Assembly: GCA_950295325.1 (NCBI GenBank)
Contig: OX485803.1
Location: forward strand, 40,687,554 to 40,751,553
Origin: Polytrichum commune
Lineage: Eukaryota; Streptophyta; Polytrichopsida; Polytrichales; Polytrichaceae
Length of the DNA: 64,000 bases
Direction: 5' to 3'
This document shows positions 5,980 to 28,264 of the stretch, piece by piece (positions within the stretch are counted from its first letter, which is position 1; every line of letters begins with the position of its first letter). Made by a program: the position numbers and the translations under genes. The notes beneath the pieces were generated by a model that saw only the letters and a list, made by a program, of their open reading frames with translations, made no database searches and was not told where the DNA came from.

Positions 5980-8327
5980 GGATTCCATGGGTGTTCAAGA
6001 AATCTATCATCAGCTCCAAGTGCCAAACGGTGAATGCGCGTGTATTTACCAACACTTGTCCCTACAATCCGAGGTCCACATATTCAACCCAACACATCTG
6101 CTCTCTCAAGTCATGAAGCATGAAGACATTTAAAGCCAAGCATGTATGATGGATTGATTAACCTTATAGTTAGCACTTGTTAGATTCTTCGCATGAGTCT
6201 TCTGCATGTTTTCTTCCAAGTCAGGTGCTTGCGCGCGGGCCACCTTGCCTCATGAGGTCCAGTGGTGCCATTAAAACAAAGATTTTGATTAGCTTTTTCC
6301 AACAATGATAAGCTCAAAGTGGGAGCCAATTCTTGGGGTAGGGACCATCCAAGTCCAAACAACAGGTACATTTCGGTTTAGTTCTGCTTTCCTCCTGTAG
6401 AGGTGTGTAAAAAAAATAAAAATAGAAAGGAACCTGCAATGATTGAAGCAGCATCAATAATCTCTAGTCTCTAGTGACAGCATTAGCATCAAGAGTGCCA
6501 TCACATTATTTATGTACAGACTGCATGTAAAACATAGTTGCGACATGGAATGCGGTTCTACTGCTACCATGGCCACCCTTCCTTGTCAAAACAATTTTTG
6601 TTCTCTCCAAGGTTACGTTTCAATGCGACTACAGCTAATATGACTAGTACTTTTGTCCTACAACTACTGCCAACCTTTGTGACACATCCAGAGGTCTGTA
6701 AAGAGGAGGGTTATGTCATGTTGCAAAAACTGAGATATGAAGATCGTCAAGAAACAGTGAAGTGAGCAGAACAGTCACAAGGTCAAATACCTGCCAGATA
6801 ATTTGGATCTTCAATATTTGTCTTGGAGGGGTCGATTTTACAATATGCATATTTGCCACATATTTGCAAGGCATCCGTGTATCATGATTCCCACATCATT
6901 GACATTATATCAACAATCCTCCACATTTTGAAAGCCAACATTTCCACATGTCTGGACATTTCTACACTGATATGTGCAATTAGGTTGACCCACATTAACT
7001 TCTCAACATTCCACGTTTTTTTGAATATTTATACCACAGAACAAAAATACATGAAAGTTTTCTTTTTACTGTAGTTGCTATACAGGTGATCCAATAAATC
7101 AAAATAAGCTTTTGTGATGTGGTTTTGACCCAGCATAACACTTCTCAGTCATAGGCTGATGCACTGTGTGGTTAAGAATTATCCAGGCATATTTTGGGTT
7201 ACCTACATTTTGTGTACATTTAGTCTAAGTATTGTTCATTATAACCAGTAGCTAGCCACTAATCCAAGAATACTATTGATTAATGAGGGTTGAATTGTCA
7301 AATAGGTGCTACATATTTCTTTGAGCCAATCCTAGTTCAAGTTGTTCACTATGTATACAATAAAATATTCAAGCTTACTCGCTACGCAGGTGTCAAATAT
7401 TTTTAATATCCTACTGCTAAATCCTAAGAATTTGGTTTAAATTAGTTGGTGGTTCCATTGATTCGGCCTCTCCTCCTCCCTTCTTTTAGAAAGGGAGTGG
7501 AGTGCAAAGGTTGAATAATATTATGGAGGTAATTTGCATGGGTAGAAGAATCAACTTATTCATGAGTTTAATCTAATTCCACATATAATTGAGTAAAGAA
7601 GAATACATACTATTAAAGCACACTAGAACTAAAGATAAGATTGCACAAGCATATATACATATGTAGAGGCACATGAACAATGCTTGGATTGAGATGGTCA
7701 TCTTCACTCCTTATCTTGCTCTTTATTGTATTTTTTTCTCCTTGGTTCATACTATGTATATGGGATATCTCAACCCTCATTTTCCACAAATCATATAGGC
7801 TTATTTAAACATTATTCATTCATATACCTCTAACAATCACAAACCTATAACTACAAGCAACCTAATGCTCTATCCTCAACACTCATACGTTGAGAGTAAT
7901 CAAAGGATTGCAATTTCATTACCCTTAATAATGATTGTCATCTCTCCATGTTTTCAAAAGACATAGTTTCATACAACTTCAAAGAATCACCAAAATTTGT
8001 CAAAATTGGTTAATTTCTTCACCACGTTGGGGTAATATGTGATTCTTCCACCATACTCCAAGTGGAGGGCGCTCCCTTGTAGAGTATCTTCATTCTCCTA
8101 AAGGTTGTGCCTCTCCACAAACATCTATACTTGGTTATCGCATCCCATCGCATCAAATTGCAACAGACTCACATTAGAGCTTAAATCTTTCTTTAACTCA
8201 GATTCTCTAGCAACTCTCCATTTTGTTTTGTGAATTTGTTGTAGTTTTGCAATCTAGTATATGTCATATTGGCAGACTTAGAGCCAGGTAATGGCAAGAG
8301 CATGAGGAGGACGAAGTGTTGCAGCGC
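5980..8327. other. AT-rich intergenic DNA, no gene seen
   Basis: The start is the 3' untranslated region of the RINGv gene. I find only short open frames without splice context, a few poly-A and poly-T runs, and no recognisable domains. An open frame on the minus strand reaches the LINE insertion point at 8328 but has no recognisable homology. Confidence 0.5.
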
Positions 8328-8340
8328 TACCACGTGCACA
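8328..8340. repeat. Target-site duplication, left copy
   Basis: TACCACGTGCACA is repeated exactly at 10960-10972. The two copies bracket the LINE, fixing its insertion boundaries at 8341 and 10959. Confidence 0.85.
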
Positions 8341-10959
8341 GAAGAAGAAGAACTCCAACCCCCAAAAGGGGGGCCGGAGTGAATAGAGTGTCTGTTCGTA
8401 GGACATCCTTGGCCATACCCCAAGGTAGTGGCGTTGGATGTAATACTACTTCACCCTTTTCAGGGAGTAGACACTATGTTAGTAGCAAGTGACTTTTTTA
8501 CAGGTTTTAACCGGTGGCATGGGTTTTGGGGGAAAGTATGTGGGCCTATGTGATTAAGTGTGGTTTTGTAGGTCATTTACAAATTGTCTATTTTCTAGCT
8601 GTCTTTTATGGATTAAAATTGAATGTGCATATTGTATGGCAATTGTGTTAATTTGTTTAAATGTGTTTTTAATTTGTGATGGGGGAAGTTTAAACTTTGT
8701 TTCTAAATGCGTTCATCGAGGGGATGTGAGTTGTGGCTCTGGCACCTGATGCTAATACTATGAGTGGAGTTGCATTCCAGCCTCTTGCATTGAGGTTGTT
8801 AATGAGTGGTTGGTATTTAGTAGTTTTTCTTTCTCTTGTTTTGGCCGAGAACCTGTCATTGCAGTATGTGAATTCGATGAATTGTATGGTGACTTCCGGA
8901 GTGGGTGTTTCTGGTGGCGGGGAGTTGTATGGATGCCCAATGACACATAGTATGTCGGGTTTGAGTCTAGCATTGCAATGACATCTTTGGGTACTACATG
9001 TGCATGGGAGTAACCAGCTAGGTACTGTGTTTTCTTGTGGGGATTCATTGTATGTGCCAGCATTCATAAGTATATAGTGCCGGGTTACTTTATTTGAGAC
9101 AAGGAGTTTTCGAATTTCCCAGACTGTTTTGTTGTGTCTTTTTGTGATTAGTGCGTGGATATGCTATTGTTTGCATTTAAGGAGTACGTGTAGCCATGTG
9201 TCAGCTTCTGGTGAGTTGCAAATTGGGCATGTGGTGGATGGGTATGCGTTTCGTCCAAATAAGAGTTGTTTCCAGGCATGTCCCATATATTGTCCGGTTC
9301 TAAATTTCACTAAACATGTTTTTTGTTTATCTGTGATGACCAGGTTGTTCCAAAAGTCATTTGATAAGTCTTTGTCAATGTCTTTGTTATTAAGCCATTT
9401 GTGTAGTTGGTGTGTTTGGGTTGCTACAATTGTTAGATTGTGCTTTTTGTCATATTTGAGGATGTATTTACCAAGGTGACGGATTGGGCCTTTATCTGGT
9501 GTGTCTTGCATTGAGTGCCACCAGTCTTTTTGGAGGTAGTATGGTGTGGGGTGGGCATGTTCGTATGTTTCCACTGCGTCCCTATGTATTAATGTACATC
9601 CCATTTTGGCTAGTTTATATGCGTGTTCATTGCCACTTATGTTTGTGTGGGCTTTGACTTTATGTAGTGTGGTGATTTGTGTGCGGGACTGTAACATCTT
9701 AATTATGGATTCAAGTATTTTTTTGTCTGGGTGACTATTGTGTAGGGTGGGGTGTTTTATCTGTGTGTTTAGGAGGTATAGGACATTGAGGCAATCTGTG
9801 AAAATGTGTGCTGGTTCATTTCGATATGTGGTAGTGAGGAGGCGGAGGGTGTGGTGTATAGCCATGAGTTCTGCTCGTAGGATATTTTGGAGTCCTGGTA
9901 ATCTTTCTGCGATTTCTAGATTTTTGAAAGGGTTATATATGCCATATCCTGCTTTTTCTCTCCTCCAATGTTCTTGGGTTATAGCTTTGGGAGGTATAAA
10001 TGATCCATCTGTGTAATAGCAAAATTGTGGTTGGTATTTAAGGGGTAGGCAAATGTTTTGATTGTTGATTAATGGGATATTGTTGGTTTGGGTCGTAGGG
10101 GGAGGAGGCGGGTATGTGAGTTGGGATCATTTCTTATTGCAATTTACTGGTGTGTCCATGGGTGTTGGTGGTACATTTGTGTTAAACATAGTGGGTATTT
10201 GTAGGGTGTGGCCAATAAAGTTCATTCGTTGTGCATATCCTCTTGGTCCGAGGGGTGAGGTTTTGTGGTGTATGCACAATATTTGGATGTCACGGCTTTC
10301 TATTCGGGGTTCAATTCGTAGTTTTGGTGGTATTGTGGGTTCATCATATGTAATAGTATTTGCCTTGAAGTGTGTGATGATGTGTGAGTCTAGGAAAGGG
10401 CCTACATGTAGATGGAGGTTATGGTACCAGATAGGGTCAGTTGTTATGAGTATTGTAACTGTGTCGGGGTTGTTTTTGGCTGCAAGTCGTGCCCAATGCA
10501 AGGCTTGTTGGGTGTCTTTTTCTGAATGTGGGTGGGCATACCCGTTCCCTATCCATTTGTGTTGGAATGCGGTCCCTATTGACCCAAATACTTTGTCTCT
10601 TGTAAATGGGGAAGAGAATTGTTTTAGTGAGGTAGTGCATATTACCGGTGATGAGAAGTATGAGTGTGTGATTTGAAATGAGTCTATAATGTGTTCAAGG
10701 ATGGCATTAGGGAGTGTGTATTGTGAGAGTTTGAAGGGGTCATTTTTGGGCATTCTATATTTGTATCGTTGGTACAACCATGCAACTTCCTTTTCAAAGG
10801 ATTGTATGGGGGGTATTAAGTTTAGCGATTGGTGTAATGCGTTTTGGTATTGTTCCCATAGCCACTGTAATCTTTGTTCAGGGATGGTAATTATGTGGCG
10901 CCCATCCTCATCGTATATATGTAATGCACCGTGTTGACTTTGGATGGTGGCATGTGTGT
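8341..10959 (-). mobile_element. 5'-truncated LINE, copy 1, with RNase H and RLE-like endonuclease
   Basis: This minus-strand non-LTR retrotransposon is flanked by a 13-bp target-site duplication. Its 3' end (8341) is a short (CTT)n-type tail instead of poly-A, and copy 2 ends similarly. The 5' end lies inside the coding sequence, so reverse transcription stopped early and the RT domain is not present. The 3' untranslated region is ~213 bp (8341-8553). The G-rich + strand and the conserved minus frame show the orientation. The exact duplication and a frame nearly open over 2.3 kb suggest a fairly recent insertion. Confidence 0.85.
8554..10959 (-). pseudogene. LINE polyprotein C-terminal part: PCIF1-like domain, RNase H, CCHC, RLE-like nuclease
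   Basis: One frame runs from 10959 to 8690 with two in-frame stops (near 10127 and 9164). A one-base shift near 8690 then leads into the last ~45 codons, ending at 8554. In order: a domain at ~10630-10345 with FGSIG, GNGYAHPH, ITTDPIW and DSHIITHF, resembling PCIF1-type N6-adenine methyltransferases, where AHPH stands at the place of the catalytic NPPF; RNase H at ~10015-9590 (YTDGSF, AELMAI, FTDCLN, HKVKAH and GNEHAYKLA give the acidic residues); a CCHC knuckle (CPIC, 9 residues, H, 4, C); RHNKTVWEI; then KPDIL and IEFTYCND with downstream Lys, as in the restriction-like endonuclease of R2-type LINEs. RNase H degrades RNA in RNA-DNA hybrids, and the nuclease would nick target DNA. The methyltransferase assignment is tentative. 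Confidence 0.7.
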
Positions 10960-10972
10960 TACCACGTGCACA
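10960..10972. repeat. Target-site duplication, right copy
   Basis: This is the exact partner of 8328-8340 (TACCACGTGCACA). Host sequence resumes at 10973. Confidence 0.85.
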
Positions 10973-11768
10973 CAAGTAAACAGAGTGGCGCAAGGAGGAG
11001 CACACCTAGGTCCAAGATCAATGCAAGCAAACTGCAAAACCAAAGCACGACAGACACGAGTAGATCACTTAGTGCATTTTAAAAACGACGTGCGGCATAA
11101 TATAGAGAGGATTAAAATCATTTGAAATAAAAATTATAAAGGAATTCCAAATAATGAAGGGACCATTAAATGTAGACAATCCCATCATAAGTAACTTAGA
11201 TGGACATAAAACGTGGGCCATTATTTTTTGTAAAATTAGTATAGGGGCTAAAGATAAGGATCCTAGAAGGTATGTTTAGTATGGTACGTAAATGGGTTTA
11301 GGACTCACGGGGATGGATGATAATTGGGATTTCCATCTGTCCAAAAATGGCTTAAAAGGAATATAGAATACAAAAAATTGCAGTGACTTGGACAATATAA
11401 GTAATGGAAGGGTGTAAACAAATGGGCCATTTATGAAATTTAAGTAATTATAGGGAGGCTTTAATTCATCCCTTGAAGGTAAATAGCCCCAAAACAAAAA
11501 AACCCCCAGCCGCATGTGGTGCACAAAAATGCCTTAGAGTGATCTACCCGTGACGACAGTTCTATGAGGCACGAGAAAGAAAGACTAGTGACACCACATG
11601 CACTTAAGAGAATACGTCGACACCACAAGGAAGATCCACGATCTATGAGACAGGAGCAAAGACATGTGACACAAGAGAGAGAAGAGCCAAGGAGGCAGAA
11701 GCGAGCATGATTGTGTGTAACATCCGGTACACAAAAACCATATTGCCAAGAGGAGACGCAACATTGAG
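10973..11768. other. Intergenic DNA, no gene seen
   Basis: This is the right flank of the LINE insertion. Only short, poorly supported open frames occur. 11540-11720 is purine-rich (GAGACAGGAGCAAAGACATG and similar) and may belong to a degraded repeat. Confidence 0.4.
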
Positions 11769-12660
11769 ATGGAGAACATGTTGGCTTTATTCATCACATC
11801 GTTACTATCTACTACATTTTCCAAGTGTATTTACACACTCCCACATCACAAAGAAGCACCAACAACACTCCTCACCAACACTCCTCACAAAGTTGCAACC
11901 AACTATCTAAATCTTGGAGAAGAACAACACAAAGCCTTCCACTTCGCAACCACAGTTGGTACCCACAACCAAATCCACACCAAGACCAAGCTCGGCCCAC
12001 AAAAACACCTTGAAATACCTCCACCGCTCCCTCACAAAACCACCACAAACCAAACACACAAAGGTAAGTAAAAAATAGGCTTACCAATTTACTTCAAAAA
12101 GAAAAACCCACAAAATACAAAGTTGCCTCCTCCCACTCCCACAAAAAACCTCTACAAAACTTACCTCCAACGCCAATTGTTGCTTGCCATTGCCAACAAT
12201 ACCTACAACAAGAAAAGAAAAAAGATAACCACCCACACATCCAAACAACGCCGACACCGCTCAAATGATACAAACATACCCCTCCCCAAAAAAAAGAATT
12301 AAAACAAAATCATCCATATACAAGAAACATAATTACCAAAGGAAAAATCCACTTGATACATAAACACAAAATTCCCCCACTATAAAATCCTTTATAATGG
12401 TACAAATGATATTGACACAAGTATGAGAAGACCAGTAGTACCCTATACCCCAAGCAAAGGCGGACTTCTAACCATGGTACACAAATCAATTCACTCCACA
12501 TAAAACATCTCAAAAATCTCCACCCCACTAAAACTATCCTCATATGTCCAAACCATTCAAATCCTCAATGAACCCATCCAACCCATTCTACTCATCCACC
12601 TATATATACATGCCCACCCACCCCAAATACTACACCTCATACAAGACATCACTAAGATAA
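11769..12660 (+). mobile_element. LINE fragment with APE-type endonuclease, decayed
   Basis: Plus-strand translation gives a Thr/Pro/His-rich leader (11769-12070) and then, with breaks, segments typical of the apurinic-like endonuclease of LINEs. These are ILYNGTNDID, then SKGGLLTMVHKSIHST, a YVQTIQILNEPIQPIL strand pair, and YMPTHPKYYT (12380-12640). The endonuclease nicks the target to prime reverse transcription. Several stops and shifts show it is dead, and no RT domain follows. It runs opposite to the nearby copy 1. Whether it is the 5' part of the same family cannot be settled here. Confidence 0.5.
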
Positions 12661-15936: not shown

Positions 15937-16431
15937 GAGAGAGAAGAAACGTTGACCCCTAATGGGATCAGCATGATTAAAATGCCCGTTCGACCCACCC
16001 TTGATATTATGTCCACTGGACATAATATCAGTGGTGCAGGACTATTAACCCCTCTCGGGGTGGGCACTGTAGAAATTGGGGTGACCAAGTTTGGCCATGT
16101 GTTGGTGCGGTTGTAGTGCTTGTAGGGGCAAAGGTTATAACTTTGTGGGGTGGATGTTGAGTCATGAGCCTTCCATTAGTTTATTGTGATATCTTTTATT
16201 TATTGATTGGCTGGTGTTTTGGGAGTTCTTATGGTAGTTGTGTGTCAAGTGGTATTGGCTCGTTATTTTCTATCCTTCTTTTGTGCAGAATTATGGACAT
16301 AGCATATTGTATAGCGATGACATTAATTGCCTCAAATGTGTTCTTGATCCTCTGCTTAGGGGTTTTAAATGTTGTTTCAATGTTATCCATAGAGGGGATA
16401 TGTGTGGCAGCCCTAGCGCCTGCAGTGATGA
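15937..16431 (-). mobile_element. LINE copy 2, 5'-truncated, nested in the pogo-like element
   Basis: This 495-bp insertion is flanked by CCTGAGAGTA at 15927-15936 and 16432-16441, a perfect 10-bp target-site duplication. On the minus strand its left-hand coding end reads GARAATHIPSMDN, then QRIKNTFEAINVIAIQYAMS, matching copy 1 (GARATTHIPSMN, then QIKNTFKQINTIAIQYAHS). Its 3' tail is TC-rich (TTTCTTCTCTCTC), like the CTT tail of copy 1. Coding sequence stops at ~16229 and a ~290-bp 3' untranslated region follows. Only the last ~65 codons were copied. Confidence 0.85.
16002..16030. repeat. Perfect 14-bp-arm palindrome in the LINE 3' region
   Basis: TGATATTATGTCCA, one central C, then TGGACATAATATCA. 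In RNA this forms a strong hairpin ~70 nt from the LINE's 3' end, a position where some LINE reverse transcriptases recognise their template. Copy 1 has no identical palindrome, so the role is uncertain. Confidence 0.8.
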
Positions 16432-16811
16432 CCTGAGAGTACATCATTAGTGAAGGCAATGTTAACACTCATGAACTGAATGTCGGTTTAGAAAATGAAG
16501 TTACATTCTAGGGTTTTGACTCTCTTTATGAGCATGTTCTTGACATCAAGGATTAGCTGCTCTGCCTTGAAGTTCAAGCAGAAGCAGAGGAAACATTTGA
16601 TGGCCTTAAGAAATCATTTGAATCATTTCAGAGTAAGATCCGAGCGGTCGGCCTCAAAGCCAAACGCAAAAAACTTCAAAACTTACGCCAAATGACGATT
16701 CATGACATGTTCAACTAATAAATCTTGAACCCTAAATTTTTTGCCAAAAAATGCGTACTTAACCGGGATGCGTACTTAAACATGTGCGTACTTAAGCGGG
16801 GGATTACTGTA

Positions 16812-27357: not shown

Positions 27358-28264
27358 TTAGTGGCCAAACAAAATATGTTTGTTCAATGATTTCTCATAT
27401 ATTGCGCATATTGGAACTTGAATATATGGAAGATTTGGGTGTCGGATGTCGTGAATTCTCTCAAAGGATCTGGATAACTTGTGGTTAATTTGTTCGTCGA
27501 GAAGAAGTCTATAGGCGATGAAAGCGGATTCTGGCTTCTGGTGAGGCCACGTTGCATGTGCTTTCTTGACCATCGGATTTGACCGATGTTACCCTCCTCC
27601 CCTGATCTCCTCCGTTCCTGCCACCACTCATCCATTGCGTTGGAGGAGCCATTTATCAACGTATGTGATTTTGCGTTTTGCAAAGGTAGCTTCTCTCATT
27701 TTGTGTTCTTTGTGTGATGTATGTGTGTAGGTTTCTAAGTTATCCTTTGTGTGTAGCTGTTGGGGGGGGGGGCATTTAGCTAGTAAGGTGTTGTGTGTGT
27801 GATGTGAATGTGGGGAGCAAGGGTTTCTATGTCTTTGTGGCCCCTTTGTTTGCGAGTTCATTTGTTTTTCTGTTCCCTCTGATTCTGGTGTGTGCTCTAA
27901 CCTTTTGTATCGTTGTTTTTTTTGCTTGGCCTGGTAAATTTGGCGACTTGTTGATGCTATAAATAGCATGCACGGGGTGATGATGTTGTGAGGAAGGGTG
28001 TATGATGTAGTTGCCTATTAGGTATATGCTACTTAGGCCATCTACAAAGATATAGGTTTCTAATTATGTGGTTTGGATGGCCTTGATGGCGAGCAATATT
28101 GCATTTAGTTCGGTTTTTAGGATGTTATGGTATCCTTGGAGTCTTTCTGCTATTTGCAAGTTGTTATTGGGGCTATATACTACTAAGTCGGCTATGTTAC
28201 CTACTCCTCCTTGACACAAAGTACCTATGTGCCTCGGGGGTTCACTCCCTCTTATATTTTGCAT
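27358..28264 (-). mobile_element. LINE copy 3, decayed RNase H region
   Basis: On the minus strand, SPNNNLQIAERLQGYHNILK followed by TELNAILLAIKAI parallels copy 1 (NPFKNLEIAERLPGLQNILR, AELMAIHHTL). QKVRAHTRIRGNRKTNELAN parallels LHKVKAHTNISGNEHAYKLA, and KHILFGH parallels KQLLFGR. Reading it needs several frame changes, and many stops are present, so it is much older than copies 1 and 2. Neither its ends nor a target duplication could be fixed. The RLE-like end seems to be missing or too diverged. Confidence 0.65.

Follow-up and report, generated by a model that had tools for sequence, protein, structure and literature searches.

Introduction

Whether a LINE can carry a domain of the PCIF1 (CAPAM) methyltransferase family within its own polyprotein, and what such a domain might do there, is the question raised by a locus of Polytrichum commune. 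The DNA analysed, here called the window, is a stretch of 64,000 nucleotides. The original prediction, made from the letters alone, proposed a LINE protein at 8554..10959 of the window, in which a segment laid out like a PCIF1-family adenine methyltransferase stands next to RNase H and an RLE-like endonuclease. PCIF1 itself has an N-terminal WW domain, which binds the phosphorylated tail of RNA polymerase II.

Retroelements equipped with DNA methyltransferases are already known, among them DIRS elements with a Dam-like N6A methylase (PMC5890265) and LINE and DIRS elements of Symbiodinium with a DNMT (PMC6338049). These resemble the family described here in that a nucleic-acid methyltransferase has been captured by a retroelement, but they involve other methyltransferase families and other types of element. 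At the level of titles and abstracts, with subscription literature mostly outside the coverage, no report was found of a PCIF1-type, RNA-cap-related domain in a LINE polyprotein or in any other retrotransposon. The presence of a PCIF1-type domain in a LINE polyprotein is provisionally regarded as new, the PCIF1 type being the new part.

The copy in the window

A single retrotransposed unit occupies window positions 10959-8341 on the minus strand, and nucleotide matches to copies in the same genome run from 10958 to about 8340. It is a 5'-truncated copy, 2619 bp in length (8341..10959), of a non-LTR retrotransposon assigned by its motifs to the Dualen type. A perfect 13-bp direct repeat, TGTGCACGTGGTA, abuts both of the boundaries that were found independently by alignment to other copies; this target-site duplication, to which no strand is assigned, lies at 10960..10972 on the 5' side of the element and at 8328..8340 on its 3' side. 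As a chance control, random 30-base pieces of the window were compared in 5000 pairs; in 6 of these the longest shared word was 13 bases or more. The window copy thereby displays the hallmark of target-primed reverse transcription, namely 5' truncation together with a target-site duplication. The 5' limit given originally, 10959, coincides with the element boundary, but the 3' limit lies at 8341 rather than at 8554.

Three open stretches on the minus strand, 10957-10130, 10126-9167 and 9163-8693, form one frame split by two stop codons, the first (10127..10129) between the PCIF1-like domain and RNase H and the second (9164..9166) just past the CCHC finger. A frame check of the window placed all the motifs named earlier in this one minus-strand frame: FGSIG (10588-10574), GNGYAHPH (10549-10526), ITTDPIW (10447-10427), DSHIITHF (10390-10367), YTDGS (10015-10001), CPIC (9229-9218), RHN (9139-9131) and KPD (8962-8954). 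Since it contains two in-frame stops and has Tyr at the position of the last catalytic Asp of RNase H, the window copy is dead.

Other remnants of the same kind of element are scattered in the window. An APE-endonuclease-region remnant of another copy (12309-12617, plus strand) lies close to the element's 5' side in opposite orientation, a remnant of the 3' coding end of another copy is found at 16232-16432 (minus strand), and an older, diverged RNase H remnant with 39-42% identity at 27842-28180 (minus strand). A Pfam search of six other open reading frames of the window returned just a weak RRM, slightly under its cut-off. A Utopia-like insertion into a U2 snRNA gene was considered and rejected, there being no Rfam match at gathering score in the window; two weak matches, far below the gathering scores, were the only ones obtained for 7500-11500.

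Homology to PCIF1

The PCIF1/CAPAM-like domain, 276 aa as conserved in the family, occupies 10130..10957 on the minus strand and was delimited by Pfam and HH comparison. Despite its Pfam name, PCIF1_WW, the family PF12237 describes the CAPAM-like methyltransferase domain and not the WW domain (PMC7641849). The window domain matches PF12237 with an E-value of about 7e-10 (6.6e-10 to 7.2e-10) and a score of 39.2 bits against a cut-off of 31.1, the match proper extending over 10490-10846, whereas the reversed domain and two shuffled versions gave no match to this model. All eight members of a diverse family alignment also match PF12237 (best E-value 8.5e-14), and in one genomic copy model positions 13-173 of 176 are covered. 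HH comparison with two vertebrate PCIF1 chains gave 89.5% and 92.5%, against at most 5.7% for 50 column-shuffled controls and 0.08% for the reversed control. Profile comparison, which the original prediction had called for, thus supports the assignment of the segment to the PCIF1/CAPAM family.

The PDB chains 6irv and 6irx we take to be human and zebrafish PCIF1, respectively. A figure legend in PMC10544176 gives these species the other way round, with no effect on any result here. Among PDB sequences, PCIF1 is the top match of the window domain alone, but a weak one (E=0.53), and it is the best match of the family profile (E=0.036); identity between the family and PCIF1 is about 25% in the HH comparisons. 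A single-sequence AlphaFold model of the window domain had a pLDDT of 38.8, too low for fold comparison. A reading of the segment as Sel1 repeats (E about 0.06, under the cut-off) was set aside. With the PCIF1-like domain, the RT and the RNase H-RLE regions as queries, no confirmed relative was found in a collection of viral contigs, nor was one found with the PCIF1-like domain in prokaryotic genome contigs or a phage collection.

The family in the host genome

In the 408 Mb host genome, the window domain as query gave 135 matches from the best 134 of 2042 candidates, other copies being 54-91% identical. A search with PF12237, in which the best 150 of 697 candidates were scored, placed all 150 over the Pfam cut-off, with a best E-value of 1.1e-12. 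As only the best candidates are scored in such searches, these copy counts are lower bounds.

Longer family members, for which the original prediction had asked, were found, and in 16 of 16 long loci an RT lies upstream. One locus, L009, consists of a single open frame of 2663 codons in which Pfam recognises RVT_1 (7.1e-29), PCIF1_WW (1.4e-10) and RNase_H (2.9e-12), in that order. The RT is of the non-LTR type, its closest solved structures being R2 RTs (8.3e-31). No APE was reported by Pfam in L009 itself at E-values up to 1; in a sister copy, L011, Exo_endo_phos_2 is found over its cut-off (5.3e-7) upstream of the RT. In each of the 16 long loci, those domains that are present share a strand and follow the order APE, RT, linker, PCIF1-like domain, RNase H and RLE region, the APE region being found in 15 of the loci, and the linker between the RT and the PCIF1-like domain measures 444 aa. 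The predicted protein therefore has a Dualen-like architecture with an additional, integral and conserved PCIF1-type domain between RT and RNase H.

A PCIF1-like domain lies downstream of each of the best 20 RT places of the genome (18 matched by comparing lists by eye, one of these with the domain at an unusual 4.4 kb, and two fetched). As these RTs are 94-100% identical to the query, and hence close relatives, this result does not extend to RT families further away. Nearly identical copies exist in two pairs, one with 99.7% identity over 7.6 kb and the other with 99.1% over 9.3 kb, which suggests recent movement. The family may thus have been active recently, although segmental duplication of a pair would also fit.

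Upstream of the APE, 2A-like motifs of the form GD[I/V]xxNPGP occur in 13 of the 16 long loci (L009, L010, L011, L012, L013, L014, L015, L016, L019, L021, L022, L023 and L054), with one to three in each, sometimes in tandem; none was seen upstream of the APE in L017, L018 or L020. These motifs suggest that the N-terminal part may be released by ribosome skipping.

At E-values up to 1, Pfam reported no WW domain in the 2663-codon frame, and neither a Dam-like methylase nor a tyrosine recombinase was among the matches for five long frames. When a vertebrate PCIF1 domain was used as query against the host genome, nothing scored like a true host PCIF1 gene, the best match reaching 29.3 bits (E 1.3e-4), and each of the six places fetched among the 150 scored proved to be a copy of the retrotransposon family. 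It is likely, though not proven with six of 150 matches checked individually, that the host has no PCIF1 gene, and the element copies may be the sole PCIF1-type sequences in its genome.

The catalytic loop

In the window domain, AHPH (10526..10537, minus strand) occupies, according to the alignments, the position that the catalytic loop (A)NPPF has in PCIF1, as had been predicted; in the family alignment, the A-N-P-P-F of PCIF1 faces A-H-P-H-[N/T/S]. Among 49 aligned rows, the loop reads AHPH[N/T/S] in 44, AHPPN in two, and AHPNN, GHPYN and VHLHT in one each. NPPF occurs in none of the 49, and the first residue of the loop is His in every one. Across the same rows, which include subfamilies near 50% identity, 47 columns are invariant. 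The rows come from places picked for long frames or a high PF12237 score and include the window copy; hits shorter than 215 aa were left out, four of the 53 loci (L029, L031, L034 and L050) gave no row, the match being split between frames, and one place is counted twice (L002 lies inside L019). Of six further places from the list obtained with the PCIF1 query, two have AHPPN and three AHPH, and one (L057) is decayed, its motif being unreadable.

DNA encoding GYAHPH was found at 426 places genome-wide against 0 for the control, as compared with 11 against 7 for GYAHPP; DNA encoding GYANPP, at 2 against 2, is no commoner than its control. The GYAHPH sites listed are not one recent clone, as they fall into at least 45 DNA versions, with differences at each of the six wobble positions. 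Such 18-base patterns fix the protein letters, so that they count copies and synonymous variety but do not by themselves measure constraint.

Other landmarks of PCIF1, such as F512, S514, P515, G535, S536, G538, P554 and W588, numbered by counting from N553 of PCIF1, are present in at least 80% of 21 rows, and the turn FGSxG, the stretch F-x-S-P and the Trp past the next strand are kept. The family thus resembles PCIF1/CAPAM in profile homology over most of PF12237 and in retaining F-x-S-P, Q-x-x-S, FGSxG, A-x-P and the following Trp, but differs from it in the absence of NPPF, in having no WW domain reported in the 2663-codon frame, and in being built into a retrotransposon polyprotein.

A point mutation in NPPF is reported to lower PCIF1 activity (PMC6318281), and N553 and F556 are described as the residues usually mutated to inactivate the enzyme (PMC10544176). 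Both of these positions differ in the family. In the available part of PMC8868631, the motifs named are NPPF/Y and NI/LPY, none of which has His first. The suggestion of a working adenine methyltransferase was accordingly not borne out: NPPF is missing from all the aligned rows, DNA for GYANPP is at control level, and the residues at the N553 and F556 positions are altered. It had also been proposed that longer family members without any methyltransferase motif would count against the methyltransferase link; in these members the catalytic motif is indeed absent, but the domain itself is present.

Selection

The dN/dS analysis drew on 11 of the 16 long loci, of which 7 to 11 were kept per domain after sequences with stops or short coverage had been dropped, and covered a dS range of 0.15-1.5; the pairs are not independent. 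Median dN/dS was 0.113 for the PCIF1-like domain (13 pairs), as compared with 0.061 for RT (6 pairs), 0.079 for RNase H (19 pairs), 0.088 for APE (5 pairs), 0.089 for the RLE region (9 pairs), 0.112 for the linker (18 pairs) and 0.058 for the segment that separates RNase H from RLE (10 pairs). The PCIF1-like domain is under purifying selection, with a constraint about that of the linker and somewhat weaker than that of the enzymes.

A possible role and its alternatives

We consider it reasonably probable that the window holds a dead, truncated Dualen-type copy from a large and recently active family whose integral PCIF1/CAPAM-derived domain has been re-tooled, so that it would bind RNA and would not be a canonical writer of N6-methyladenine. 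Both key loop residues differ and the rest is kept, and the domain is therefore more probably a binder of its substrate than a methylating enzyme. As judged from these residues, it is most likely a re-tooled, probably non-methylating nucleic-acid-binding module, and adenine methylation by it is somewhat disfavoured. A comparable case is Drosophila Pcif1, a PCIF1 relative reported to be kept without catalytic activity (PMC10544176), although this is a single host gene and not part of a mobile element.

We infer that the domain would keep a PCIF1-like fold and substrate surface while losing canonical N6-adenine writing, and that it would bind the element's own RNA in the target-primed reverse transcription complex. 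The target would plausibly be the capped 5' end of the RNA, or the RNA-cDNA junction. Given that the substrate of PCIF1 is the cap-adjacent adenosine of mRNA (PMC6318281), the domain might plausibly recognise the capped 5' end of the element RNA, or else the RNA-cDNA duplex between RT and RNase H. Such binding might favour the choice of full-length templates, or the completion of the first strand before RNase H removes the RNA. What the data show of the life cycle itself are long open frames, the 13-bp target-site duplication of the window copy, near-identical copies, and a 3' end that is conserved in part of the family.

The evidence may be set against three other explanations. We give very little credence to the idea that the PCIF1 match is an artefact of chance or composition and that the segment belongs to the thumb or connection region of an RT. 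The match is certainly remote, with only E=0.036 for the family profile against solved PCIF1 and about 25% identity, but the genome search reached an E-value of 1.1e-12 with all 150 scored places over the cut-off, shuffled and reversed controls were negative, and PCIF1 was the best match in the PDB sequence set. The RT-thumb reading was moreover rejected on the PCIF1 profile match and on the separate 444-aa linker that already lies between RT and domain. If the homology is accepted, the domain might descend from a single capture and persist passively, as a relic or a spacer, and the absence of the canonical catalytic motif, together with a dN/dS equal to that of the unassigned linker (0.113 vs 0.112), speaks for this. 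A value of about 0.11 nevertheless amounts to strong constraint and therefore disfavours a relic, as do 47 columns invariant in 49 rows that span subfamilies near 50% identity, and this explanation appears highly improbable.

As the conserved His could itself be catalytic, the main rival explanation holds that the domain is a working N6-adenine methyltransferase whose His-Pro-X loop is non-canonical. Such an enzyme might mark the element RNA, next to the cap or internally, or the cDNA, and the benefit might be a more stable RNA, escape from host sensing or resistance to silencing. A residue that is strictly conserved in an active site may signal a change in catalysis and not its loss, and His in 49 of 49 rows under purifying selection is what would be expected of an active site. 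Other PCIF1 landmarks are kept; with F-x-S-P, the FGSxG turn and the following Trp retained, SAM could still be bound. There are, in addition, known cases of retrotransposons that encode an adenine (DIRS, Dam-like) or a cytosine methyltransferase (PMC5890265). Against this stand the differences at both N553 and F556, positions that inactivate PCIF1 when mutated (PMC10544176), and the lack of a His-first motif among NPPF/Y and NI/LPY as named in the corresponding part of PMC8868631. An active enzyme is therefore doubtful, though far from negligible.

Returning to the re-tooled domain, a broader proposal may be put forward tentatively, as one that is possible but would not be our first expectation: a group of LINEs may have captured a cap-adenosine methyltransferase and re-tooled it into a permanent component of their replication enzyme, in which the His-Pro-X loop would represent either a new form of adenine-methylation catalysis or a reader of the cap or 5' end for full-length templates. 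If true, this would be a case of a LINE reading or marking the 5' end of its own RNA. The family would then provide a natural experiment with many replicates on whether the 5' ends of LINE RNA are read or marked by the element itself, which bears on the choice of full-length templates, and hundreds of related PCIF1-type domains that have a fixed, non-canonical catalytic loop.

RNase H, the C-terminal region and the 3' end

The RNase H domain that had been predicted is real, and matches PF00075 with an E-value of 6.7e-13 at 9596..10024 on the minus strand; its D-E-D-H-D residues are invariant in the five long copies aligned. It is followed on the same strand by a CCHC zinc finger, CPIC...H...C (9173..9229), recognised from the sequence, with its four positions invariant in six copies, and then by an RLE-like C-terminal region (8693..9163) containing the motifs RHN, a C-rich CTC..CHC, KPD, IEFTY and K..KY. 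Across the C-terminal part of six copies, the CCHC, RHN, the C-rich CTC..CHC, PD, E and K are invariant. The region fits an RLE in its motifs, as had been proposed, but Pfam gave no match and PDB sequences no relevant one. The RLE label is consequently motif-based, and so is the Dualen label that depends on it.

In Dualen, RNase H is located between RT and RLE. Dualen (RandI) elements are defined by their dual endonuclease (PMC3636483, PMC4640811), and the family shares with them an APE-type endonuclease upstream of the RT and an RLE-like C-terminus. What sets it apart from them is the additional PCIF1-like domain that follows RT and precedes RNase H. The descriptions of Dualen contained in the available parts of these two sources do not mention such a domain, and an unnoticed homologue in Dualen is possible.

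The 3'-terminal region of the element, at 8341..8485 on the minus strand, is probably a structured RNA, as judged from identity across loci and a consensus fold, and ends in CTTCTTCTTC. Among the 16 long loci, ten share these 145 bases at 81-90% identity, and none of the six L009-like loci gave a match. Folding nine sequences together gave a consensus of -48 kcal/mol; 5 of its 42 pairs show changes on both sides, and the covariation term is small (-1.45). All nine folded 3' ends finish in CTTCTTCTTC with small variations, and this conserved terminal region is possibly a start signal for reverse transcription.
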